From: a virus | Virus record (IMG/VR): IMGVR_UViG_3300031630_000409 | Coordinates: 1-22,760 of that record | Reading direction: 5' to 3' (one strand) | DNA: 22,760 nucleotides | Part shown: positions 1 through 22,760 of the stretch, piece by piece | Layout: each line of letters opens with the position of its first letter | How positions within the stretch are numbered: position 1 is the first letter of the stretch | Made by a program: the position numbers and the translations under genes | The notes under the pieces: model-generated | The model's input: only the letters and a program-made list of their open reading frames with translations | The model's database searches: none | Told to the model about the DNA's origin: nothing

Positions 1-700
1 GAAACGATCTAGATAGTTCAAGATTGTTAGCAAACTTTTTACTACAGTGTACTATAGTTTTTGTTTCAAAGTTTATTACTGGTACCATTGGAAAAGCGGC
101 ACACATTTTACGATCTATTTCAGCTGCTTGTTTATGTACTTCTTCTACATCACCTTTAGTTGGTGTTCTACCATTAAATGCTTTGAACATAGTATTTTTA
201 TGTTCTAGTTTCTTTTTAAATTCTGGATAGTTTGCTATGTATTTAAAGTAATTAGGTGTTTTAAGTACTACGTTATAGTTATTCATATCATTTGGTTCTA
301 GATAGTCATAGTTACCTAATTTCTTTATCTCATCTGGATAAAAATCTAACGTTAAATGTTCTACATATAAAATATCTGGGTCTTTTAGTATCTCTGGGTA
401 TCTTTTTCTTATAAAAGAGTTAGATAAAACTTGGCAAATAAAATTAGGGTATTCTTTTACCATTGCAATCACTTCACGCAAGTTCTTAATTAGACCTGGC
501 TCTCCACCAAGTAAACATATTCTAGTCTTATAATTCTTTAAACTTTCTAACGTTTCTCTTAAAAAATCTAAATCTACTGTTAAGTTTCTCATTTCTAGAG
601 TATAACTTGTACAGTAGTGACAATCTTTATTACAAGACATTGATAGAAAGAAATCTACAGCTAAGTAGTTCTTTTGTGCATATGTTAAATCAAATTTCAT
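1..700 (-). CDS. Radical SAM protein (3' end beyond window)
   Basis: Translating the reverse strand from the ATG at 700 gives an open frame of 233 codons that runs off the left edge, so the C-terminus is missing. Residues 23-30 hold the CxxxCxxC cluster motif (Cys23, Cys27, Cys30) that binds the [4Fe-4S] cluster of radical SAM enzymes. A Gly-Gly-Glu-Pro stretch near residue 66 fits the SAM-binding GGEP motif. The later part has scattered cysteines, one near residue 200 and one in a VHCSKK stretch near residue 217, which could belong to an auxiliary cluster. It is the last visible gene of the leftward operon, and its start overlaps the end of the upstream nitroreductase-like gene by 11 nt, suggesting translational coupling. 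The substrate is unknown. Family membership is solid; specific function is not inferable. Confidence 0.85.
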   Translation of the reverse strand, partial: MKFDLTYAQKNYLAVDFFLSMSCNKDCHYCTSYTLEMRNLTVDLDFLRETLESLKNYKTRICLLGGEPGLIKNLREVIAMVKEYPNFICQVLSNSFIRKRYPEILKDPDILYVEHLTLDFYPDEIKKLGNYDYLEPNDMNNYNVVLKTPNYFKYIANYPEFKKKLEHKNTMFKAFNGRTPTKGDVEEVHKQAAEIDRKMCAAFPMVPVINFETKTIVHCSKKFANNLELSRSF

Positions 701-1544
701 TTTTGTCTTCTTCTAACTGTCTATTTATCTCTAGTTCACCACCAAGAGATTTTTCTATTACCATTTCTGTAAACTTTTTATCATCATAATGCCACATATC
801 CTTTGCATTTTTAAATGTCTTACTGTCTGCTGGCTGTTTTGTCACATCAACCCAATTTATCATATCTTCATATGGTGGTTTATGATCATCTTGTACTTGA
901 TTAGTTCTTTTCATAAAATCCATTCTGTAATAGGAACCATAACCTAGTGTAACTATCATGTGTGGTGTTCTATTAACATAAGTAGTATCTTGCCATCTAG
1001 ATGGATTTTTAGGAAAACAAGAAGTAAATGAAACGTCTATACCTTTTTCTAATGCCAGGCCAACTAATGATTGAGAAAATAATCCACATTCAAAAGAAAT
1101 TAAACTGTCTATTTCGCTTAATTCACTTTCAATAGTTTGTTCCGTAAAGTGACTATCATTATCTACACCCCATTGATTAAATTTATTGTTCTCACAAAGT
1201 CTTGATTCAAATACCAAAACATATGGAGCACTTATTATATGTTGATAGTTTCTATTTACTAAATGTATTGAATCTTTTATCTTACCCTCTCTCATGGCCC
1301 TATCTTCGGTTGCATGGTGATTAAATACTGCTTTATTCCATATCTTAATTTTTTCTGATTGATTTTCATCTCCTGGACCTATAATGTTTATCTTATAAGG
1401 CATAAACTGTTGTTTAGAAGGAGTTACTTCATAAGCTTCTTTAATAACAGAGTTTACTTCTTCTTTAGTTGGCCATTTTTCTCTATCGTACAACCAAACT
1501 TGTTGTCTCTTATTAAGTGCTTTGTATACTGGAGATTTAGTCAT
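690..1544 (-). CDS. Nitroreductase-like flavoprotein, copy 2
   Basis: The protein is 284 aa. Near residue 40 a TPSKQQFMPY stretch corresponds to the FMN-binding arginine/serine loop of nitroreductases. A later FECGLFSQSLVGLALEKGID segment matches the long helix (usually Ala-rich) before the C-terminal FMN contacts. Nitroreductase-family enzymes use FMN and NAD(P)H to reduce nitro groups, quinones or enones, or perform specialised dehydrogenations; the reaction here is unknown. It is clearly a paralogue of the next gene (1537-2355): TPSKQ, a HH pair after WxKAxxNHH, YQH, APYV, GLF, EKGID and CFPK are shared. The start overlaps the upstream gene's end by 8 nt, and an AGGA ribosome site precedes the ATG. 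Fold assignment is moderately confident. Confidence 0.68.
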   Translation of the reverse strand: MTKSPVYKALNKRQQVWLYDREKWPTKEEVNSVIKEAYEVTPSKQQFMPYKINIIGPGDENQSEKIKIWNKAVFNHHATEDRAMREGKIKDSIHLVNRNYQHIISAPYVLVFESRLCENNKFNQWGVDNDSHFTEQTIESELSEIDSLISFECGLFSQSLVGLALEKGIDVSFTSCFPKNPSRWQDTTYVNRTPHMIVTLGYGSYYRMDFMKRTNQVQDDHKPPYEDMINWVDVTKQPADSKTFKNAKDMWHYDDKKFTEMVIEKSLGGELEINRQLEEDKNEI

Positions 1545-2355
1545 TTATTCCTATATTTAAATCTTGTTTACTAATGTTTAATCTTCTTTTCATTTCAGTT
1601 TTATTTTCGTCTGTAGTTCCAGATGTATCTTCAACCCAATTTATTACATCTTTAAAGTCTGCTTTTCTGTCCATATCCCAATTACTTTTACCGTTTTCAG
1701 TATCAGGACCATTTTCTTCCATCCACTGTTTCTTATAATATTTTCCATGTCCCATAGAACAAGTTAGAAGTGGTAAAGTTGTAACAAAATCTAGATCATG
1801 CCATTTTTCTACATCTTTAGGAAAACATTGTGTATATGTAATATCAATACCTTTCTCTACTAGTAATCCTGTAAGAGAAGCTACAAACAATCCTACTTCA
1901 ACACTTGTTGCTTGTGCTAGGTTGTTTATTTGATCTTCAAATTCTGGTTCACTAAAGTGACCATCTTCAGCAATACATTTTTGATTCCATGCATTTGTTT
2001 TTCCTGGTTCAACAACTCTAGACGTAATAACTATTACATAAGGAGCGTCTGATAAATGTTGATATGTTTTATTTACTTTTTTAGGTGATTGATCTATCTG
2101 ACCTTTTGATAATGCTCTTTCTTCCACATTATGGTGGTTATGCATTGCCTTATCCCATACTTTAAGTTTTTCATCATCAAACTTTGATTCTGGACCTAAT
2201 ATATTTACTTTGTAGGGATAGTAATTTTGTTTTGAGGGTGTCATATGCCAGGCTTTCCAGAGACAATCTTCTATAACTTTTTTATCTGGTATATTATCCT
2301 TATCGTATTCTATTACATGTTTACGTTTTAAAAACGTTTCATATATTTTTGACAT
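1537..2355 (-). CDS. Nitroreductase-like flavoprotein, copy 1
   Basis: The protein is 272 aa. The TPSKQNYYPYKVNILGP segment near residue 40 matches the nitroreductase FMN loop. The VEVGLFVASLTGLLVEKGID helix and a CSMGHGKYY stretch correspond positionally to the conserved core of its neighbour. It is a diverged tandem paralogue of 690-1544. Nitroreductases are obligate dimers with FMN at the interface, so two adjacent paralogues could form a heterodimer (inference). A clear AGGAG ribosome site lies upstream of the ATG. The start lies inside the end of the SGNH hydrolase gene (17-nt overlap). No membrane segment or signal peptide is visible, so it is probably cytoplasmic. Confidence 0.68.
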   Translation of the reverse strand: MSKIYETFLKRKHVIEYDKDNIPDKKVIEDCLWKAWHMTPSKQNYYPYKVNILGPESKFDDEKLKVWDKAMHNHHNVEERALSKGQIDQSPKKVNKTYQHLSDAPYVIVITSRVVEPGKTNAWNQKCIAEDGHFSEPEFEDQINNLAQATSVEVGLFVASLTGLLVEKGIDITYTQCFPKDVEKWHDLDFVTTLPLLTCSMGHGKYYKKQWMEENGPDTENGKSNWDMDRKADFKDVINWVEDTSGTTDENKTEMKRRLNISKQDLNIGIND

Positions 2356-3112
2356 TTATTTCTCCTATTAAGAGGTTGGTTATTGCTTGATGTCCTTTTT
2401 CGTTAGGGTGGTCATCTTGGTCAGATACTATAAGGCCTCTTTCTTCCATTTGTATTCCGTCTCTACCTAAAACATGACCGATCATGTTAAAACCACCTAG
2501 TCTATCATATTTTTCTTGTAAACCAGGCCAACCTATAAAGTTATTTATATGTTTATTATACTTGCCTATTATTTCTAATAATTTTTCCTCATCTTTAAGT
2601 GGATCACCTGGATATTTCATTCTATCCTCGTTTGTCATATTATGAAGTAATCTATCCGATTCTGTAGGTTTTAATCCTTTTAAATATGATTCAAACAGAT
2701 CACCCATTTGAAAATGATAATATGGTAGGTTGTAGTTTTCACACATCATCTGAAAACTTAAATATGTTCTTAAACTTTTAGTTACCCAACCTAACAAGTC
2801 TCCATCTTGATCAGTTCTTTTAGAGTGCCAACTGCCTAGCCAGCCTGTTTGCCAATCTTTTCTAAATGATTGTGACCAAGCAGCTATAACTAATCCTATT
2901 TCTTCTTTAGGTGTTTTTACTATCTCATCTAATATAGTATCGTGAATGTATTGATTACCTGCTCCACTTTTCGCAACGCAAACAAGTTCCATACCTAAAT
3001 GTTTTGCAAGAAGTTCAGGCCATTTTGGCCATGAAAAGTCCCATGTAGGGTGACATATAGACCTAAATGCTAGGTCTGTACAACTATCTCCACTAACTAT
3101 TAATTTTTTCAT
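2339..3112 (-). CDS. SGNH/GDSL-family hydrolase
   Basis: The 257-aa protein starts with a short beta strand leading into GDS at residues 8-10, making Ser10 the likely nucleophile (block I of the SGNH family). A SGAGNQ stretch near residue 49 fits the block II glycine. The C-terminal DDHPNEKGH supplies the catalytic His235 with nearby acidic residues. The expected block III GxND is not obvious; AAWSQSFR occupies a comparable place. SGNH enzymes act as esterases, acetyl-xylan or sugar deacetylases, or acyltransferases. In an operon with an aminotransferase and glycosyltransferase, adding or removing an acyl group on a sugar or small molecule is plausible (inference). No signal peptide is seen, so it should act in the cytoplasm. 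The start overlaps the upstream gene by 20 nt. Confidence 0.78.
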   Translation of the reverse strand: MKKLIVSGDSCTDLAFRSICHPTWDFSWPKWPELLAKHLGMELVCVAKSGAGNQYIHDTILDEIVKTPKEEIGLVIAAWSQSFRKDWQTGWLGSWHSKRTDQDGDLLGWVTKSLRTYLSFQMMCENYNLPYYHFQMGDLFESYLKGLKPTESDRLLHNMTNEDRMKYPGDPLKDEEKLLEIIGKYNKHINNFIGWPGLQEKYDRLGGFNMIGHVLGRDGIQMEERGLIVSDQDDHPNEKGHQAITNLLIGEINVKNI

Positions 3113-3401
3113 AGAATAATTTGTTAAATGCTATTTTAAGTTTATGTTTAGGTTCTTCTTTAAAGTTCAAAGGACCGTAATCATATTCAGGCATTAAGTA
3201 AGTCTTCTCAACAATATACTCATACACTGGTTCATGTTCTTTGTCAATTAATGTTTCGTCAAAGATGTCACTAGTACCTAATGCTCTTTTCATCATTTGA
3301 CAAGTTTTAATAAGATTATGATCGGTTATAGGAACAGGATTTTCGTTACTGTCAATATAACTAATTTGATCTAATTCTGTGTTTGCTATTATTTCAATCA
3401 T
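3093..3401 (-). CDS. Small acidic protein of unknown function
   Basis: I do not recognise this 102-aa protein. It is acidic in its central part and has no cysteines paired in a metal motif, signal peptide or membrane segment; the C-terminal third is basic (KHKLKIAFNKLFYEK). The reading frame is supported by its place in the operon: its start overlaps the aminotransferase stop by 4 nt (ATGA-type junction) and its end overlaps the SGNH hydrolase start. It may be an accessory or carrier-type partner, but no phosphopantetheine-type DSL serine motif is visible, so that remains speculation. Confidence 0.6.
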   Translation of the reverse strand: MIEIIANTELDQISYIDSNENPVPITDHNLIKTCQMMKRALGTSDIFDETLIDKEHEPVYEYIVEKTYLMPEYDYGPLNFKEEPKHKLKIAFNKLFYEKINS

Positions 3402-4468
3402 AGGTTATTTAATATTGTATTGCATACATCTTTTACTTCTTCATCTTTCATAAATGGGTGTATTGGTAATGTTAATACAGAGCTACTAACTAGTTTACTA
3501 TTTTTACAGTTATCACTTCTATGTTCTATGTTTTTATACATAGGTCTTTCCGAAATAAGTTTTTCATAATGAATATTAGCACCTAGTTTTCCTTTTATTC
3601 TATCTCTTGCCTCATTAGCTTCAACTGGATCTCCTTCATCAAATCTTATAACGTATTTATGATATGTATGATTCAGACCATTTGTTGTTTCTTGTACAGC
3701 TACATAACCTTTTAGTTCATCATCATATTTTTTTGCTATTATTTGTTTAGCCTCAATATACTGATCTAATTTTTTTAATCTATAATCAATAAATTTTGCA
3801 TTAAAGAATAACATTTTAGAATTATATCCTAGTATCTCATGGTTACCGTGTTTTCTTAACTTGATACACATATCAGCATGTTCTTTATTATCTGTTAATA
3901 CAATTCCACCACCAGCAATACCACCAATAGTTTTGTTTGCATTGAAACTTATAGTACTAAAATCTCCTTGTGTACCTGCTTTTACACCATTAAGACCTGA
4001 ACCTATGGCCTGAGCTGCGTCTTCTACAAAGTATATATTTTTCTCTTTACAAAATTTTAATATTTCTGCTATATCTGTCATACTGCCAAACAAATGTGGA
4101 TAGATAATTGCTTTTACTTTATCTGAATACATTTTTTTAATACTATCAAGAGTCATATGATAAGAGTATGGGTCTATATCACAAAATACAGGTGTTGCAC
4201 CTACCATAGATATACAAGACGCTGTTGATATCCAAGAGAAGTTGGTTGTTATTACTTCATCGCCTGGTTTTATACCTAGACATTTTAGAGAAAACATTAA
4301 GGCGTCTGTACCATTTTGACATGCTACGGCATATTTTCTACCTACTATATCTGTAACTGTTTTTTCCAGAAACTCTATGTTTTGTTCCTGATTTTCTTTC
4401 ATGCATTCATCAAAGAGTTTAGTATAATTCTCTTTGTCTTCAGCATATTCATATTTCCATGCGTCCAT
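3398..4468 (-). CDS. DegT/DnrJ/EryC1/StrS-type PLP aminotransferase
   Basis: The 356-aa protein has the hallmarks of sugar aminotransferases of the DegT/DnrJ/EryC1/StrS family. These are QNGTDALMFSL near residue 51 (PLP phosphate loop), GDEVITTNFSW near 69, VEDAAQAIGSG with Asp150 and Gln153 (PLP pyridine contacts), and SFNANKTIGG with Lys179 as the Schiff-base lysine. Length is slightly short of the usual 370-400 aa but the fold appears complete. The family typically transfers an amino group from glutamate to a nucleotide-linked keto-sugar, making precursors for O-antigen or glycoconjugates. A strong ribosome site (AGAGGAGA) precedes the ATG, so it may be translated well independently of the upstream gene, which it abuts by one base. 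No keto-sugar-forming dehydratase is visible in the window, so the substrate would come from the host or elsewhere in the genome. Confidence 0.88.
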   Translation of the reverse strand: MDAWKYEYAEDKENYTKLFDECMKENQEQNIEFLEKTVTDIVGRKYAVACQNGTDALMFSLKCLGIKPGDEVITTNFSWISTASCISMVGATPVFCDIDPYSYHMTLDSIKKMYSDKVKAIIYPHLFGSMTDIAEILKFCKEKNIYFVEDAAQAIGSGLNGVKAGTQGDFSTISFNANKTIGGIAGGGIVLTDNKEHADMCIKLRKHGNHEILGYNSKMLFFNAKFIDYRLKKLDQYIEAKQIIAKKYDDELKGYVAVQETTNGLNHTYHKYVIRFDEGDPVEANEARDRIKGKLGANIHYEKLISERPMYKNIEHRSDNCKNSKLVSSSVLTLPIHPFMKDEEVKDVCNTILNNL

Positions 4469-4833
4469 TATTTCTCCTCTACCATTTTCTTTACTCCATT
4501 TTCATAAACAGTTTCAACCTTTATCTTATCATCTTTAGCCCTTGCTTGGCAATGGTGTAAACAAGTTTGATTGATTTTTTCTAAATTGTCTCCTTTATCT
4601 CTAGCCTGGACTAGATCATCTTCAAAAGCTTGCCATTGTTTAGTGTCTAGTATATTGTCTATACTTTTATAATCTTTAAGTTTACTAATAGAGTAAATTT
4701 CTTTAAATAGTTCACTCTTTGTAGTCTTCGGGTGATCACACCAACAACATGGTAATAAGTGACCTCTATTGTCTATTGCCAAAGGCATTGGTTTCTCACC
4801 ATTTATAGGTAAACATTTAGGATTTAATTTCAT
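4468..4833 (-). CDS. SPASM-like Cys-rich partner of radical SAM, copy 2
   Basis: The 121-aa protein contains a PCCWCD motif (Cys29, Cys30, Cys32) after a DNRGHLLP strand, and a second cluster CLHHC (Cys91, Cys95) near the end. This is the layout of a SPASM/twitch auxiliary Fe-S cluster domain, which normally forms the C-terminus of a radical SAM enzyme and here is encoded as a separate protein. It follows the radical SAM core gene 4817-5446 with a 17-nt overlap. It is a paralogue of 5446-5829, sharing the N-terminal KCLP/RCLP, MPLAI.NRG, PCCWCD and C..HC. It most likely pairs with the adjacent core enzyme to supply an electron-transfer or substrate-binding cluster (inference). Confidence 0.72.
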   Translation of the reverse strand: MKLNPKCLPINGEKPMPLAIDNRGHLLPCCWCDHPKTTKSELFKEIYSISKLKDYKSIDNILDTKQWQAFEDDLVQARDKGDNLEKINQTCLHHCQARAKDDKIKVETVYENGVKKMVEEK

Positions 4834-5446
4834 ATACTGCGTTTTTTGATATTAATGCTTTTGTAGGTTTAAGAGGATCATCATTTGTTAACCATCTTGA
4901 TGATTCTGTTAACATAAAATTTATTCCGTTATTATTTGCCATTTTTTTACAAGTCTCAATATCGTTTTCATTATAACTAAATCTAATACATTGCCATACA
5001 GGTGTACTTAATAAATGTTTAGTCGCCTCTTTCATTATCTCAAACATCTTAACACCATCTTGATTCTTCCTGTATTTATGACTGTCTTTAGGTAGACCAT
5101 CACAGGCGAATATCCATACTGCTTTAGGATTTGCCTGCCAAGATTTAATATACCATGACATAGGTTTAGCTGTAGCTGCATTATGAACAAATACCTCTGG
5201 CACATCTTTTAGTTGAGACATTATATCATTAAATTTAGGGTGATGTACTGGATCCGATAACTGTCCACAAAATGCAACTTCTTTAAAATGTTTTGCTATC
5301 ATGTCTATCTCAACAGCGCTTAGATCACGTCCATGGGGTACCAAACCATAGTTGGTAAACGATGTTTGTCTTTGGCAGTTAGGACATTCTAAAGGACATC
5401 TATGTGTCACATCTAAATTTAATCTACTATTTTTTTTAAATGACAT
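4817..5446 (-). CDS. Radical SAM core protein, copy 2
   Basis: The protein is 209 aa. The radical SAM motif CPLECPNC is at residues 17-24 (Cys17, Cys21, Cys24), immediately after the first beta strand. The rest is a short TIM-barrel-like domain without C-terminal auxiliary cysteines; the auxiliary cluster appears to be supplied by the separate downstream gene. A FACDGLPKDSHKYRKNQDG stretch in the middle is almost identical in the upstream paralogue (5816-6481), so it is probably part of the active site. The start shares its first base with the stop of the preceding SPASM-like gene. Radical SAM enzymes make a 5'-deoxyadenosyl radical from SAM. The substrate is unknown; cores with SPASM partners often modify peptides or sugars. 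Confidence 0.85.
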   Translation of the reverse strand: MSFKKNSRLNLDVTHRCPLECPNCQRQTSFTNYGLVPHGRDLSAVEIDMIAKHFKEVAFCGQLSDPVHHPKFNDIMSQLKDVPEVFVHNAATAKPMSWYIKSWQANPKAVWIFACDGLPKDSHKYRKNQDGVKMFEIMKEATKHLLSTPVWQCIRFSYNENDIETCKKMANNNGINFMLTESSRWLTNDDPLKPTKALISKNAVYEIKS

Positions 5447-5829
5447 TACTTTGTATCTTTTTTTAATTCTTTTCCGTCTCTATATGTTGTTTCTACCTTT
5501 ATCTTATCTTCCTTTTCTCTTACCTTACAGTGGTGAATACATACACCATTGATCTTATTAAGATTATCTCCTACGTCTCTAGCTCTAACTAAATCATTTT
5601 CAAATTCTTTCCATTCTGGTTGATCCATTAATTGTTCAACTGTATCAAAATTTTCAAGTTTACTTACATCATATATCTTTTTAAATCTTTCACTATTAGT
5701 AACTGCCCTTTCGTCACACCAACAACAAGGTAATATGTAACCTCTATTGTTTATTGCCAATGGCATAGATATGTAATTAGGGTCGTCTGGATTAGGAAGA
5801 CAACGAGGTCTTAATTTAATATTCTTCAT
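5446..5829 (-). CDS. SPASM-like Cys-rich partner of radical SAM, copy 1
   Basis: The protein is 127 aa with Cys35, Cys36 and Cys38 in PCCWCD and Cys97 and Cys101 in CIHHC, plus an N-terminal RCLP cysteine. The architecture is the same as 4468-4833, with the basic C-terminal KVETTYRDGK tail also shared. It overlaps the upstream core radical SAM gene by 14 nt. Together they form the first of two tandem core-plus-SPASM pairs. A stand-alone protein of this kind could bind one auxiliary [4Fe-4S] cluster and act as a subunit of the core enzyme. No alternative function fits the Cys pattern better. Confidence 0.72.
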   Translation of the reverse strand: MKNIKLRPRCLPNPDDPNYISMPLAINNRGYILPCCWCDERAVTNSERFKKIYDVSKLENFDTVEQLMDQPEWKEFENDLVRARDVGDNLNKINGVCIHHCKVREKEDKIKVETTYRDGKELKKDTK

Positions 5830-6481
5830 ATTTCCTTCTACCTTCTAATTTATCTTTTAATGTTTGTTTATATTTACCTGTCGGTCTAAATGGATCAGGT
5901 TTTCCGTCTCTATCTTTCCATCTGGAAGATTGTGTTAGTAGAAAATCTATTCCATTACTATTGGCCATGTTCTTAGCTTCTTCTATATCATTTTCGTTAT
6001 AGTTAAATATTATGTATTGCCATATTGGTATTACTTTTAAATGTTTAACAGACTCCTTCATTATCTCAAACATTTTTTCTCCATCTTGGTTTTTTCTATA
6101 CTTGTGGCTATCTTTTGGTAAACCATCACACGCAAAAGTCCATAGAGCATTTGGATTTGCTTTCCAAGATTTAATATACCATGCCATAGGTTTTGCTGTA
6201 GAGGCATTGTGTACTAAAACTTCAGGTATTTCAAGATCATGTAGTCTTTGTAGTATTTGAGGAAATTTAGGGTGGTGTATAGGGTCAGATAACTGACCAC
6301 AGAAAGTAAAAGACTTAAAGTGTATTGCTAGTTTTTCTATTTCTATCATTGTCAAGTCACGACCATGAGGTACTTTACCTCTAAATGTAAAAGCAGTTTG
6401 TCTTTGACAATTAGGACATTCAAGAGGACATCTATGGGAAGAGTCTACGTTTATTGTTGTTCTAGTTTTAAAGTATGTCAT
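5816..6481 (-). CDS. Radical SAM core protein, copy 1
   Basis: The protein is 221 aa with the CPLECPNC motif at residues 18-25 (Cys18, Cys22, Cys25). It is strongly similar along its whole length to 4817-5446: SHRCPLECPNCQRQT/THRCPLECPNCQRQT, HGRDL, FCGQLSDP.HHPKF, the FACDGLPKDSHKYRKNQDG block, and SSRW near the C-terminus. It is slightly longer at the C-terminus, with a basic tail. Its start overlaps the glycosyltransferase end by 14 nt. The two cores retain all three cluster cysteines and so both look active. Two copies may act on different sites of one substrate or in successive steps (inference). Confidence 0.86.
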   Translation of the reverse strand: MTYFKTRTTINVDSSHRCPLECPNCQRQTAFTFRGKVPHGRDLTMIEIEKLAIHFKSFTFCGQLSDPIHHPKFPQILQRLHDLEIPEVLVHNASTAKPMAWYIKSWKANPNALWTFACDGLPKDSHKYRKNQDGEKMFEIMKESVKHLKVIPIWQYIIFNYNENDIEEAKNMANSNGIDFLLTQSSRWKDRDGKPDPFRPTGKYKQTLKDKLEGRRKYEEY

Positions 6482-7541: not shown

Positions 7542-7993
7542 TTAAATTTCAATATGATTTAGAAAAGATTAAGAAAGAGTTGGAATCTTTACCAGATTAT
7601 AACAAACAGTTATATCTGCAAGGTCACTCTAAAGATATGGATCCTGAAGAAGGAGCTGGCAAAGGTTATGATATAGACAGTAGCGAACACACATATACTA
7701 TTCCATTATTTGATATACCTTACATCAATAGTATAATGGAAGAACATAAACTTACTAGAACAAGATTAATGAGAATGAAACCTAAAGCATGTTATCTTTG
7801 GCACAATGATTTAACAAAAAGATTACACATACCAATTGTTACAAATGATCATTGTTTTTTATTATTAGACAGTGATAGAATACACATACCAGCGACAGGC
7901 GAGGCATATGTAATAGATACTACTAAATTTCATACAGCATTAAACTGCTCAAAGGAAAATCGTATTCATATTGTTGGAGGACTACCTTACTAA
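7538..7993 (+). CDS. AspH-type 2-oxoglutarate/Fe(II) oxygenase
   Basis: The 151-aa protein carries a double-stranded beta-helix iron site: WHNDLTKRLHIPI places His89 and Asp91 (HxD), and KFHTALN supplies the distal His132. Arg142 in RIHIVGG is the expected 2-oxoglutarate-binding residue. The HNDLTKR.HIPI and H.A.N....RIHIV pattern is that of the aspartyl/asparaginyl beta-hydroxylase (AspH) family, which hydroxylates side chains of proteins or small molecules using O2 and 2-oxoglutarate. The stop codon (TAA 7991-7993) overlaps the ATG of the radical SAM gene by one base. Small oxygenases of this class are frequent in marine T4-like phages; the substrate is unknown. It could act on the same target as the adjacent radical SAM enzyme. 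Confidence 0.83.
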   Translation: MIKFQYDLEKIKKELESLPDYNKQLYLQGHSKDMDPEEGAGKGYDIDSSEHTYTIPLFDIPYINSIMEEHKLTRTRLMRMKPKACYLWHNDLTKRLHIPIVTNDHCFLLLDSDRIHIPATGEAYVIDTTKFHTALNCSKENRIHIVGGLPY

Positions 7994-9279
7994 TGTTATA
8001 TGACGCTCTTATAACTTCACTACCAGGAATGGATAAAAGTAAACCTGCACCTGGTCCTTCTTTTTTAAAAGGATATTTAGAGACACAAGGATTTAAAATC
8101 AAAGTTATAGATGGCAATCAGTTAGATACTTTAGATAATATTCATAAAGAAATTGCAAAATATGATTTCAGATGGCTAGGTATATCTGTATTCTCTTATG
8201 AACAAAAAGATGACGCCTTAAAATTAGGTGAAAGATATGAAAATGTATTGTATGGTGGATCGGGTGTAGATATAGCATGGCCATCAAAATATTATATTAC
8301 AGGAGAAGGAGAGTACGCCTTTGTAGAATTTTTAAATAACAATTTTGATTATCCTGGCATTAACGGAAAACAACCAAAACAAATAGAAGACATAGAGTCA
8401 TTACCACCACCTGATTATTCAGACGTAATACAACAACATAACTATCGTAAATTTGTAATATCTGGTTCTAGAGGTTGCGTTAGAAATTGTACCTTTTGTG
8501 ATGTTGCAAGTATATGGCCTAAATTTAGATGGAAGACAGGTAAGAAGATAGCAGACGAAATGCACCACGTATCAGAAACTACAGGTGGAAACAAAATACA
8601 TTTTTCAGACTCTTTAGTTAACGGATCAATGAAACACTTTAGGGATTTGTGTGCTGAGTTAGCTACTAGACCTAAAAAGATTAAATGGGAAGGACAGTTT
8701 ATCGTTAGAGCAGAAAAAACTTTCTCTAAACAGGACTTTGATAACTTAGCCAACTCTGGTTGTAATGGTTTAGAAATGGGTATAGAGGCAGGTAATGAAG
8801 AAGTTAGAGATCATATGAAAAAGAAGTTTACCAATGAAGACATAAAATACTTTGTAACTAATTTAGGTGAACGAAATATTACAATGAAGTTTTTACTTAT
8901 TGTAGGTTATCCTACGGAAACGGAAAAAATGTTTGAAGATACTCTACAACTAATAAGAGACTATGCAAAGTATTCACATTTAATAAGTATATCACACCAT
9001 GTTATGATGACCTTTAAAAATACACCATTAGACTTTGAACATAGAGAGTTGTTTGATAGTGAGTTTGGTTTTAAATGGAAGAATAAAAATTCAGACTTTG
9101 ATATAAGATTTCAAAGATTTATAAAAGTATATGAGTTAGGCAATGAATTAGGTTATAATTTCCAACAACATTGTATTGATAAGATAGAGAGATACAAATC
9201 CGACAAACTTAATGAAAAAAGAAAGTCTATAGGATTTGCACACCCTAAAGCAAAGAAAACTTTACACGTTCAAAGTTAA
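7993..9279 (+). CDS. Cobalamin-type (class B-like) radical SAM enzyme
   Basis: The protein is 428 aa. Residues 1 to about 120 look like a reduced B12-binding Rossmann domain: PAPGPSFLKGYLETQGFKIKVIDGN, then FRWLGISVFSYEQ, then YENVLYGGSGVD and YITGEGEYAFVEFLNN, the order seen in class B radical SAM methyltransferases. The classic DxHxxG cobalamin motif is absent, as is common in this class. The radical SAM core follows a SLPPPDYS linker, with SGSRGCVRNCTFCD giving Cys162, Cys166 and Cys169; GLEMGIEAGNEEVR and LIVGYPTET are typical later core strands. Such enzymes usually methylate unactivated carbons or phosphorus using methylcobalamin. The gene ends tail-to-tail with the receptor gene, with stop codons overlapping in TTAA. 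Family is confident; actual cobalamin binding is inferred. Confidence 0.83.
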   Translation: MLYDALITSLPGMDKSKPAPGPSFLKGYLETQGFKIKVIDGNQLDTLDNIHKEIAKYDFRWLGISVFSYEQKDDALKLGERYENVLYGGSGVDIAWPSKYYITGEGEYAFVEFLNNNFDYPGINGKQPKQIEDIESLPPPDYSDVIQQHNYRKFVISGSRGCVRNCTFCDVASIWPKFRWKTGKKIADEMHHVSETTGGNKIHFSDSLVNGSMKHFRDLCAELATRPKKIKWEGQFIVRAEKTFSKQDFDNLANSGCNGLEMGIEAGNEEVRDHMKKKFTNEDIKYFVTNLGERNITMKFLLIVGYPTETEKMFEDTLQLIRDYAKYSHLISISHHVMMTFKNTPLDFEHRELFDSEFGFKWKNKNSDFDIRFQRFIKVYELGNELGYNFQQHCIDKIERYKSDKLNEKRKSIGFAHPKAKKTLHVQS

Positions 9280-11060
9280 AAGTTCTTTTTTATTCCAAAG
9301 TTAAAGTTTCTACCATCTTGGTTATAACCATCTGGTCTTTCATAGTTTTCATCAAAAGCATTATTAAGTTTAGAGTATATTAAATAATCTCCAATATATT
9401 TTGAAACACCAAAGTCTACTGTTGTAACCTCTGATTTAGGAATAGTAGCATAAGTCACACTATCTATATCTAAATGTTCTCCATAATAATTTATATTAGA
9501 TGTTAAATTATAACCTTTGTACTCTGTATAGATACTTGTATTATTAATCCATTTTGGTTTTCTAGTTAAAGATGTTCCGTTACTTCCTTCAGAAACTATC
9601 CAACTTGTATTATTCTTTATGATAAAATTGTTTATATCATAAGTCAATCCCATTTCAGCACCATGACGAGTAGATGTACCACTAATATTTTTTATCGTAC
9701 TGTCTTGGTAGTTTAAAAGATTTTCTATATCAATTTGAAAAATAGCTATATCAATTGATTTAAGATTAGTTTCTTCAAAATGTTTTTTATATCCTATTTC
9801 GTAAGATTTACTTTCTTCAGGTTTTGCATTTTCATTACCTGAAAATCCGTAACCACTTGTACCATACATTTCATATAACGTAGGTGCTTTATGACCTGTA
9901 GATATAGAACCTCTTATGCCGTTATGTTCAAAACCATATCTATGATTAGTAAAACTACCAAATCTTGATTGATCATCATATCTAATACCATAAGTTAAAA
10001 AAGTATCATTAATTAAATAGTCAATTGTTCCACTGTAACCATGTAAGTGACTTTTTTTATTAACACTTGGAACATAAGAACCAATGTTAGTGTTGAAATT
10101 AACATCTGTTATTTCATGGTCAAAGCCTGAAGTAAATGATAGATTGTCATTAACAGATTTTGTATTGTCTACATGAAAAGTTTTTACATTACTTTCATAT
10201 AGGTCAGTGTCGCCAGATTTAAGATATGATCTTTTATGATCACTATTATTAAATGTAAAGTGAGTATCTTTATCAAAGTAATTAATTTGTTGGTTTTTAA
10301 AATTCCACTCACTAGTGTAAGCTAAGTTATCAGAACCAGAATTATCTAAACTAGAATCATTTTGTTTGTCTATAAAAATGGTACCTAAAGTATAACCATT
10401 ATCTAAAGTAGTTTCTGTATTAAGAAAGTAACTTCTATTATCATAAGGGTCTTTTTCCGCACCTTGAGGATAAACAGAGATACCATCACTAGTCTCATCT
10501 TCAATTCTAAAGTCTAATATAGTTTTGTGTTCTTCAAGGAATGTTCCTAATTTTATTGTTTTGTTCCATGTGTTATGAGAACCATAATCTAATGAAATTG
10601 AATTTTCATCACTAGCACAGGTTTTCATATTGATAACACCACCAATAGCTTCAGCACCATAAACTGTTCCCATAGGACCTTTTATGATTTCTATAGCACA
10701 AGTGCCTAATGTTCCGTGTTGTCCGATATCATCTGTACCACCGGTAGTTGATCTATCTTTTATTCCGATACCATTTAATGTTATTAATGTATGATCTGAA
10801 TCTGTTCCTCTGGTAAATGTAGAAGACAGTTGATTTTTAGGACCTGAAGTTACAATATTAAGTGAAGTACTTTCATTTAAATTTTCAGGACCAATAATGT
10901 CATACGAATATGTTTTGTGTTGATGGTCGCTAGCAGTCCTTAATCCATGAATATGGAGGGTGACGACCAAGTTGCCATCATCGTCATAGTATGATGGTTT
11001 TTCCTCATGTGCTAACGCAACGGTAGAGAAAAGAAGTATTGATAATAGTATTTTATACAT
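9276..11060 (-). CDS. TonB-dependent outer-membrane receptor, BtuB-like
   Basis: About 594 aa from the ATG at 11060, chosen because it gives a clean signal peptide (MYKILLSILLFSTVALA, cleavage after Ala17); an in-frame ATG at 11081 would add seven polar residues. A possible TonB box (GNLVVTLHI, compare DTLVVTA in BtuB) follows. The plug domain has ITLNGIGIKD and EIIKGPMGTVYGAEAIGGVINMKT, very like the BtuB plug. The rest is a 22-strand-type barrel of alternating polar/aromatic strands, with RHGAEMG and a C-terminal NAFDENYERPDGYNQDGR leading to a terminal Phe, as in BtuB. The expected role is energised uptake of cobalamin or another scarce ligand across the outer membrane. It overlaps the upstream membrane-protein gene by 49 nt. 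Intact receptors of this kind are unusual in phages. Confidence 0.9.
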   Translation of the reverse strand: MYKILLSILLFSTVALAHEEKPSYYDDDGNLVVTLHIHGLRTASDHQHKTYSYDIIGPENLNESTSLNIVTSGPKNQLSSTFTRGTDSDHTLITLNGIGIKDRSTTGGTDDIGQHGTLGTCAIEIIKGPMGTVYGAEAIGGVINMKTCASDENSISLDYGSHNTWNKTIKLGTFLEEHKTILDFRIEDETSDGISVYPQGAEKDPYDNRSYFLNTETTLDNGYTLGTIFIDKQNDSSLDNSGSDNLAYTSEWNFKNQQINYFDKDTHFTFNNSDHKRSYLKSGDTDLYESNVKTFHVDNTKSVNDNLSFTSGFDHEITDVNFNTNIGSYVPSVNKKSHLHGYSGTIDYLINDTFLTYGIRYDDQSRFGSFTNHRYGFEHNGIRGSISTGHKAPTLYEMYGTSGYGFSGNENAKPEESKSYEIGYKKHFEETNLKSIDIAIFQIDIENLLNYQDSTIKNISGTSTRHGAEMGLTYDINNFIIKNNTSWIVSEGSNGTSLTRKPKWINNTSIYTEYKGYNLTSNINYYGEHLDIDSVTYATIPKSEVTTVDFGVSKYIGDYLIYSKLNNAFDENYERPDGYNQDGRNFNFGIKKNF

Positions 11061-11413
11061 AGTTTTCCAATTATTACACATATTAAAGTTGAAACCAGTA
11101 AATTAAAATCAAATGGTATAGCCATAATATACGTTGTTAATAAATCGCCACCTGATTTATACCAGACAGCATAGTTAATAAGAACATGCCATGTCATTAC
11201 ACCTACAAAAGTAGCATAGATTTCATTTTTAATAAATTTACTCGCAAGAACGAATAAGCACATACACCCATAAACAGGTATCATTAAAGAATGAAAGCCG
11301 ATGAAAATATCCTTTATTAACAGAAAAGTCATTGGTAAAAGATATTGTATATAACGATTATTTGTAAGACTAGGTAATAATATAGCAATAGCAAATAAAG
11401 GTGTCACATTCAT
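11012..11413 (-). CDS. DUF6580-like inner-membrane transport protein
   Basis: The 133-aa protein is strongly hydrophobic with four to five membrane helices. NVTPLFAIAILLP, LPMTFLLIKDIFIGFHSLM, PVYGCMCLFVLAS, a WHVLINYAVWY stretch and LTTYIMAIPFDFNLLVSTL match my recollection of the DUF6580 family, which resembles substrate-binding (S) components of ECF vitamin transporters: PLxxLLLSDLxLGFH, a short VY segment, NFGVW, then YxxAIPFxxN. Placement is from motif memory, not a search. It is the first gene of a two-gene operon with the BtuB-like receptor, overlapping its start, so the two probably form an outer plus inner membrane uptake route. No ATPase or T component is nearby, so it would need host partners or act alone. 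A late box sits right before its ATG. Confidence 0.72.
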   Translation of the reverse strand: MNVTPLFAIAILLPSLTNNRYIQYLLPMTFLLIKDIFIGFHSLMIPVYGCMCLFVLASKFIKNEIYATFVGVMTWHVLINYAVWYKSGGDLLTTYIMAIPFDFNLLVSTLICVIIGKLCIKYYYQYFFSLPLR

Positions 11414-11421
11414 ATTGTATC

Positions 11422-11429
11422 TATTTATA
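11422..11429 (-). promoter_or_regulatory. T4-type late promoter box (receptor operon)
   Basis: Minus-strand TATAAATA. Predicted +1 is 11416, leaving only three bases before the ATG at 11413. It is opposed to the plus-strand box at 11464-11471 within a 63-base intergenic gap. Confidence 0.6.
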
Positions 11430-11476: not shown

Positions 11477-11818
11477 ATGGCTGGAATAGCAAACTTAACT
11501 ATAGACCAAGGGTCTAATTTTACATACGATTTAGAAGTAACTAATAGTGATGGTACAGATTTTGATCTTACTGGATTTACGATGGTTGCTAAAATGTCTA
11601 AAGGTTATTCCTCTACATATCCTAGAACAGTTTTTACATGTTCAGTATCACAACCAACCGAGGGTGTCGTTACTATAAGTTTAACTGCTGATCAAACGAA
11701 AGCTTTAAAGGCAGGTCGTCACGTATTTGACGTAGTTGCTACTCATTCGGATAGTACTGTAACTCGTTTACTAGAGGGAATTGTTATTGTAACTCCCTCT
11801 GTAGTTCTTTCTTTTTAA
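11477..11818 (+). CDS. Small virion structural protein, BppU/Ig-like
   Basis: The 113-aa, all-beta protein has an N-terminal GSNFTYDLEVTNSDGT, then FDLTGFTMVAKM, GVVTISLTADQTKAL, GRHVFDVVAT and RLLEGIVIVTP. This order is typical of small phage structural domains related to the N-terminal domain of BppU-type baseplate proteins (a D-L-T-G strand, an L-T-A-E/D-T turn, then a G-x-V-x-V-x-P end). It is the only plus-strand gene between two leftward modules and has its own late promoter box, in keeping with a virion component. It ends tail-to-tail with the glycosyltransferase-methyltransferase gene, the stop codons overlapping in TTAA. The exact virion position is unknown. Confidence 0.68.
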   Translation: MAGIANLTIDQGSNFTYDLEVTNSDGTDFDLTGFTMVAKMSKGYSSTYPRTVFTCSVSQPTEGVVTISLTADQTKALKAGRHVFDVVATHSDSTVTRLLEGIVIVTPSVVLSF

Positions 11819-22336: not shown

Positions 22337-22760
22337 ATGGCACAACCAACAACTAGAGAAACATTAAAAGACTATGCTTTAAGAGCACTAGGTCAACCTG
22401 TTATAGAAATTAACGTTGACAATGATCAACTAGAAGATAGACTAGATGAAGCTTTACAGTTTTATTCTCAATATCATTATGACGCTATTAGAAGAACATA
22501 TTTAAAGTATCAATATACACAAGCAGATTATGACAGAGTTACTACTAATGCAAGTGAATCTATAACTAAAGAAGGAGTAACTACTTCTTGGAAAGAAAGT
22601 CAAAATTTTATAGTTGTTCCTGAAACTGTTATAGCAGTTACAAATATTTTTCCTTTTTCAAGTAAAGGTACTCTTAATTTATTTGATGTAAGATACCAAA
22701 TGAGATTAAATGATCTATATGATTTTTCTTCAACATCGGTAGTTAACTATGATCTCGTAA
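22337..22760 (+). CDS. 13: T4-like gp13 neck (head completion) protein, N-terminal part
   Basis: The reading frame from the ATG at 22337 stays open for 141 codons to the window edge, so the C-terminus is missing. TRETLKDYALRALGQPVIEINVD near the start, then QLEDRLDEALQFYSQYHYDA and YLKYQYTQADYD match the conserved start of gp13 neck proteins of marine T4-like phages (LGxPVIEINVDxDQxxDRxDEALQxxxxYHYD). gp13 joins gp14 in the head-completion/neck complex at the portal, closing the head for tail attachment. The position after the fibre genes follows T4 order (12, wac, 13). This is the strongest anchor identifying the window as a myovirus. Confidence 0.88.
   Translation, partial: MAQPTTRETLKDYALRALGQPVIEINVDNDQLEDRLDEALQFYSQYHYDAIRRTYLKYQYTQADYDRVTTNASESITKEGVTTSWKESQNFIVVPETVIAVTNIFPFSSKGTLNLFDVRYQMRLNDLYDFSSTSVVNYDLV

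Follow-up and report, generated by a model that had tools for sequence, protein, structure and literature searches.

A Putative Phage-Borne Corrinoid Uptake Module: BtuB-like Receptor and DUF6580 Membrane Protein in a Pelagimyophage-like Virus Record

Locus and Gene Pair

The window analyzed here is the whole of a 22,760-base IMG/VR virus record (IMGVR_UViG_3300031630_000409) with T4-like virion genes. On its minus strand lie two overlapping genes, one for a TonB-dependent receptor resembling the vitamin B12 (cobalamin) receptor BtuB and one for a small membrane protein of the DUF6580 family. The present analysis indicates that the two are probably a phage-borne corrinoid (vitamin B12) uptake module that stems from an operon of a SAR11-type host. 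The elements of the pair are the following:

9276..11081, minus strand: open reading frame of the BtuB-like TonB-dependent receptor, 601 amino acids; the likely ATG at 11060 gives 594 amino acids
11010..11060, minus strand: signal-peptide-like N terminus MYKILLSILLFSTVALA, then HEEK; judged by eye rather than with a predictor
10956..10970, minus strand: TonB-box-like segment LVVTL, residues 31-35, which adjoins the plug and resembles the BtuB box
10611..10928, minus strand: plug domain, residues 45-150, from the Pfam Plug match; keeps the G-QLSS and RGT motifs
9279..10610, minus strand: beta-barrel, residues 151-594, from alignment and the AlphaFold model
11012..11413, minus strand: DUF6580 (PF20221) inner-membrane protein, 133 amino acids, from the Pfam match
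11422..11429, minus strand: T4-type late promoter box TATAAATA, 8 nucleotides (nt) before the DUF6580 ATG

A receptor start at 11081 would read MCNNWKTMYK. The start at 11060 is likelier because of the signal-peptide-like sequence MYKILLSILLFSTVALA found there, and signal-like N termini are also present in phage relatives of the receptor. The two reading frames are intact, without internal stops, and the C-terminal residue of the receptor is Phe. Both the barrel (PF00593 TonB_dep_Rec_b-barrel, 80.3 bits, cut-off 27) and the plug (PF07715, 37.5 bits, cut-off 23.9) are recognized, in agreement with the initial annotation of the window, which had described a full-length, apparently intact TonB-dependent receptor overlapping an upstream small membrane protein. 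The overlap amounts to 70 nt with the start at 11081 and to 49 nt with that at 11060. The TonB-box-like segment of that annotation is present as LVVTL; it is kept loosely in the family, residues 1-44 being the least conserved stretch of the receptor.

Receptor Sequence and Fold

By sequence profile and predicted fold, the nearest known receptor is BtuB, as had been proposed. The profile of the receptor family matches BtuB in the PDB with an E value of 1e-81, compared to 1e-56 for CirA and 1e-41 for the FepA type. The AlphaFold model (pLDDT 85.7, pTM 0.85) has BtuB structures as its first 12 PDB fold matches, the best with TM scores of 0.84/0.85. In common with E. coli BtuB (TIGR01779, PDB codes 1nqh and 2gsk), which is its best PDB match, the window receptor has a plug, a barrel, and the G-QLSS motif. 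Residues Q77, S80, E202, D204, D239, and D244 recur in 90-100% of the 29 family members aligned, and the four acidic ones fall, in the sequence alignment, at or near positions of the BtuB calcium site, although D244/D241 is not a cleanly aligned pair; the cobalamin- and calcium-site residues of BtuB are here those that we take from published structures. Unlike E. coli BtuB, the window receptor is encoded by a phage together with an inner-membrane partner, the first half of its plug is approximately 10 residues shorter, and the identity between the two is only ~20-25%.

DUF6580 Protein

The small protein matches PF20221 with 58.5 bits, well over the gathering cut-off of 27, and its counterparts in related phages are 98% and 88% identical to it. 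The initial annotation had likened it to DUF6580 and the S components of energy-coupling factor (ECF) transporters. The family assignment stands, and the S-component fold is only suggestive: in the predicted model of the form encoded by phage contig L144, 5 of the 14 top PDB matches are S components of the PanT/FolT/ThiT type, with TM scores of 0.52-0.56. No paper on the DUF6580 family was found among open-licence publications. A system to which the protein can be compared is BtuM, a solitary S-component-like B12 transporter encoded beside BtuB in organisms without BtuCDF, which needs no ECF module (PMC6072759). DUF6580 is likewise a small membrane protein beside a BtuB-type receptor; its fold match to S components is weak.

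Viral Origin and Recurrence

The genes that identify the virus and border the pair are

22337..22759, plus strand: T4-like neck protein (partial), by identity to the Mosig and HTVC008M proteins
11477..11818, plus strand: L-shaped-tail-fibre-assembly-like protein (PHROG 1084/3304), divergent, at the upstream border of the pair
7993..9279, plus strand: radical SAM protein (PF04055, 71.1 bits) with a weak N-terminal B12-binding-like domain

The neck protein shares 75% identity with its counterpart in Pelagibacter phage Mosig EXVC030M and 57% with that in HTVC008M. The former value leads us to assign the window virus, on this protein sequence, to the pelagimyophages, T4-like marine viruses of SAR11-type bacteria, and the T4-like virion region described initially is confirmed by the same gene. 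The radical SAM gene converges on the receptor gene and overlaps its end by 4 nt.

It could be argued that the pair is host DNA, or part of a chimeric assembly, binned as virus, this type of receptor gene being bacterial in origin. However, the pair is collinear in six contigs from other IMG samples and metagenomes, with receptor identities of 97-100%, which excludes a chimeric assembly, and the arrangement recurs in many related contigs. The receptor family comprises 77 IMG/VR viral contigs, as obtained by profile-guided scans, and the T4-type capsid gene gp23 is present in 7 of the 49 records tested, on contigs of up to 204 kb; most of the other tested records, those without gp23, are fragments. 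Together with the neck protein on the window itself, these results refute the reading as host DNA or chimera for the receptor family, and we assign it a practically negligible probability. The pair consists of cell-related genes in a genuine phage genome, candidates for auxiliary metabolic genes of the phage.

Neither the receptor nor DUF6580 was found in isolate phage records. The "phage" BtuB matches in Salmonella and Acinetobacter records (AFYI01000005, AGRM01000004, and CAKLQH020000002) were judged to be misfiled bacterial contigs and were not counted; two of the btuB-holding "phage" records are named as Salmonella strains and list 16S rRNA. The pelagimyophages Mosig and HTVC008M and the OM43 phage Melnitz are T4-like, and some of these phages carry glutamine riboswitches (PMC7029224, PMC9004378). 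Like the window, Mosig has variable metabolic cargo beside its tail-fibre and neck genes; the corresponding region holds other metabolic genes and no receptor, and neither receptor nor DUF6580 was found in any of the three phages, unlike in the window. No report of phage-encoded TonB receptors or of phage B12 uptake was found among open-licence papers.

In 44 of the 77 phage contigs, the DUF6580 and receptor genes are direct neighbors with the same orientation. Both gene orders occur: the window lineage is one of several in which DUF6580 leads, whereas the receptor leads in the gp23 group, and the ends of the two genes overlap in all paired phage contigs except L164. Four further contigs are cut by contig ends at the receptor locus. 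The late promoter box of the initial annotation is also recovered, with a conserved spacing: a TATAAAT box starts 13-16 nt before the DUF6580 ATG in 12 loci, the window counted. Promoters vary by lineage, the window group having the late box and others a sigma70-like TTGACA-TATAAT site, as judged by eye.

Riboswitches and Cellular Counterparts

The ligand assignment obtains independent support from riboswitches. SAR11 chromosomes carry the same pair side by side, in the order receptor and then DUF6580, and a cobalamin-class riboswitch lies directly upstream of this operon in 13 of the 14 SAR11-order regions fetched, the exception being a second, lone DUF6580. Two further SAR11 single-cell genomes have an AdoCbl-II (adenosylcobalamin) riboswitch directly before the operon. 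In all nine cases tested, the gene after the SAR11 riboswitch codes for a TonB-dependent receptor by Pfam; these receptors belong to several subfamilies, only some of which are near the phage type. A Flavobacteriaceae metagenome-assembled genome (MAG) has the order DUF6580, riboswitch, receptor. In phage L164, a 115-kb contig, an AdoCbl-II riboswitch is located between DUF6580 and the receptor, with a score of 78.4 bits (cut-off 36.5). Cobalamin or a related corrinoid as the leading ligand, as put forward in the initial annotation, is thus supported by the SAR11 operons and by one phage. Like the phage loci, the SAR11 operons (L063, L064, L199-L208, and L210-L212) have the two families adjoining, often with a B12-binding radical SAM gene nearby; unlike the window, they are chromosomal, have a riboswitch, place the receptor before DUF6580, and encode a full-length DUF6580.

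DUF6580 is present in 77 of 297 SAR11-order genomes. A search for BtuC gave no convincing match in any of the 297, the best score for the BtuC family (PF01032) being 33 bits; the PF01032 matches listed are all in short proteins, and we read these weak matches as probable cross-matches of the ZnuB type. A B12-binding-domain protein over the cut-off is encoded by 70 of the 77 DUF6580 carriers, versus 16 of the 220 other genomes, and the nearest such protein lies within 6 kb of DUF6580 in 22 of 32 loci checked. Of 42 phage records with the receptor, 14 likewise encode B12-binding-domain proteins, in many cases radical SAM enzymes. MetH was considered as a B12 consumer in SAR11 and discarded, the MetH activation domain being absent from the 297 genomes.

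These data also bear on the alternative that the module imports another ligand, such as a siderophore, haem, or another metal chelate. TonB-dependent receptors diverge in their ligands, the identity to BtuB is low, and the corresponding cargo region of Mosig includes genes for haem oxygenase and ferrochelatase. However, BtuB ranks above every siderophore receptor in both the profile and the fold comparison, the homologous SAR11 operons are under cobalamin riboswitches, and DUF6580 co-occurs with B12-binding proteins. We therefore consider another ligand improbable; the comparisons place the receptor with neither siderophore nor sugar receptors and the small protein in no unrelated family.

A number of observations weigh against the assignment of the pair to B12 uptake. 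No riboswitch was found in the window, where the gap before DUF6580 is only ~60 nt, and a model built from three AdoCbl-II sequences gave no riboswitch besides that of L164 in 79 loci, the window included. The receptor scores 160.8 bits on the BtuB equivalog TIGR01779, below the cut-off of 599.7, and BtuB D179 is aligned with Ser. The cobalamin-riboswitch-controlled SAR11 receptors are likewise below this cut-off (90-233 bits), and because of this the low score bears more on orthology than on ligand. DUF6580 of the window lineage lacks, in the alignment, the N-terminal helix 1 and the RxxPHPPNF motif, its match beginning at position 27 of the PF20221 profile, whereas the domain is complete in other phages and in SAR11; the L144-form model gave no significant fold match (E above 1). 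In 29 of the 77 phage contigs the receptor has no adjacent DUF6580. The co-occurrence of DUF6580 with B12-binding domains (Fisher p 9e-44) is uncorrected for shared ancestry, and the radical SAM protein of the window has a B12-binding (PF02310) score of 20.9 bits, below the cut-off of 32.1, which comparable radical SAM neighbors in other phages and in SAR11 pass. Finally, no TonB C-terminal domain (PF03544) was found in 74 SAR11 genomes and 6 phage records. In the complete 1.21-Mb SAR11 genome G024 (L279-L342), the profile of the phage family detects one receptor, of the B12 type (1052059-1053969); this genome has no TonB by motif or by a search with E. coli TonB, and a single TolQ/ExbB-TolR/ExbD pair, inside a tolQRAB-pal-like operon. 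Powering of the receptor by TonB in SAR11, as for BtuB in E. coli, is thus doubtful, and Tol as the motor is a guess.

Proposed Function

Since the closest bacterial counterparts of the pair form a B12-riboswitch operon, the virus probably induces B12 import in the cell that it infects. In the proposed scenario, the receptor would bind cobalamin or a related corrinoid outside the cell and carry it through the outer membrane, and DUF6580 would move it over the inner membrane. Of the two-membrane uptake suggested initially, the recurrence of the pair across phages is established, and the inner-membrane step is a plausible role for DUF6580. In the window lineage, the host riboswitch would have been lost and the module, with a T4 late box before it, would be expressed late and released from B12 feedback, such that uptake could go on under conditions in which the host would turn it off. 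Enzymes that depend on B12 would probably use the imported vitamin; the most plausible users are the B12-binding radical SAM proteins that phages and hosts alike encode close to the pair. A more elaborate version, namely a mobile two-membrane B12 cassette placed under either a riboswitch or an early or late promoter, feeding phage radical SAM enzymes and with a Tol-driven receptor, is tentative and, as a whole, rather unlikely.

SAR11 bacteria, among the most abundant in the ocean, live where B12 is scarce and costly. Phage-installed B12 uptake, if true, would tie virus infection to vitamin cycling. DUF6580 would gain a candidate role, namely B12 passage over the inner membrane where bacteria have no BtuCDF. 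A further question is what energizes an outer-membrane receptor in SAR11, where no TonB is recognizable.

Evolution and Selection

The phage receptors form one clade (support 96/95), within which one Rhodobiaceae MAG copy is nested. Its sister group consists of SAR11 receptors from AdoCbl-II-controlled operons (L063, L064, and L205-L207; support 100/99). Transfer of the pair from host to phage is the likeliest direction suggested by these sequences, and is unproven because midpoint rooting was used for the tree. Among near relatives, the ratio of nonsynonymous to synonymous substitution rates (dN/dS) is 0.09-0.14 for the receptor and 0.06-0.11 for DUF6580, and both genes are under purifying selection.

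Between the window and phage contig L007, the receptors are 46.8% identical in amino acids, compared to 88.5% for DUF6580 and 72-93% for most flanking genes; the comparison with L004 gives the reverse pattern. Diversifying selection, i.e., fast evolution of the receptor, was considered for the L007 difference. As the L007 receptor belongs to another clade, the difference is better read as an exchange of receptor alleles between phage backbones.

Such exchange, independent of the neighboring genes, would fit a receptor acting mainly at the cell surface, where it would replace, mask, or decoy the host adsorption protein (superinfection exclusion), with uptake secondary; TonB-dependent receptors are well-known attachment sites for phages and colicins. 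A surface role leaves unexplained, however, why the pairing with an inner-membrane protein is conserved, whichever gene comes first, and why one phage has kept the riboswitch. Furthermore, across the family the barrel loops are no more variable than the strands (mean conservation of 0.586 vs 0.491), unlike what surface-loop escape would give. A decoy or exclusion role, alone or besides B12 uptake, is possible; as the main role of the receptor, we judge it to be rather improbable, and B12 uptake is the preferred function.

Further Observations at Receptor Loci

In all 29 DUF6580-less phage loci, the receptor is adjoined by a single-helix membrane microprotein of 36-41 amino acids ending in ..YKLGLELWCIAYGLIY (e.g., L042:11666-11791, L044:6846-6971, L015:9910-10020, and L024:3295-3405, with 25 more loci), and microprotein and DUF6580 never occur together at receptor loci. 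The microprotein has no Pfam family over the cut-off and no PHROG match; its downstream copies show proportions of synonymous (pS) and nonsynonymous (pN) differences of 0.56 and 0.18, respectively. We do not claim it as an alternative receptor partner, because it is also present beside unrelated genes, away from receptors, in many phages. A second phage receptor subfamily is shorter, with 490-530 amino acids (L237, L238, L240, L250, L251, L267, L269, and L274-L277), and the beginning of its receptor gene shares 28-46 nt with the microprotein gene.

At positions 2-6481, the window has clustered cargo genes for radical SAM and nitroreductase-like proteins, for a DegT aminotransferase, and for a GDSL-like protein. 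In L163, a 182-kb T4-like phage, a glutamine riboswitch (9374-9421, 48.4 bits, cut-off 35) is located between gp23 and the pair. In L021-L023, L056, L149, L150, and L161, the pair directly follows a tRNA-Pro gene or lies within a tRNA cluster. The contig with the Rhodobiaceae MAG copy nested in the phage clade (L062:7962-9722) appears to be bacterial. This copy has neither DUF6580 nor a riboswitch next to it and may represent a phage-to-bacterium transfer or misbinning.

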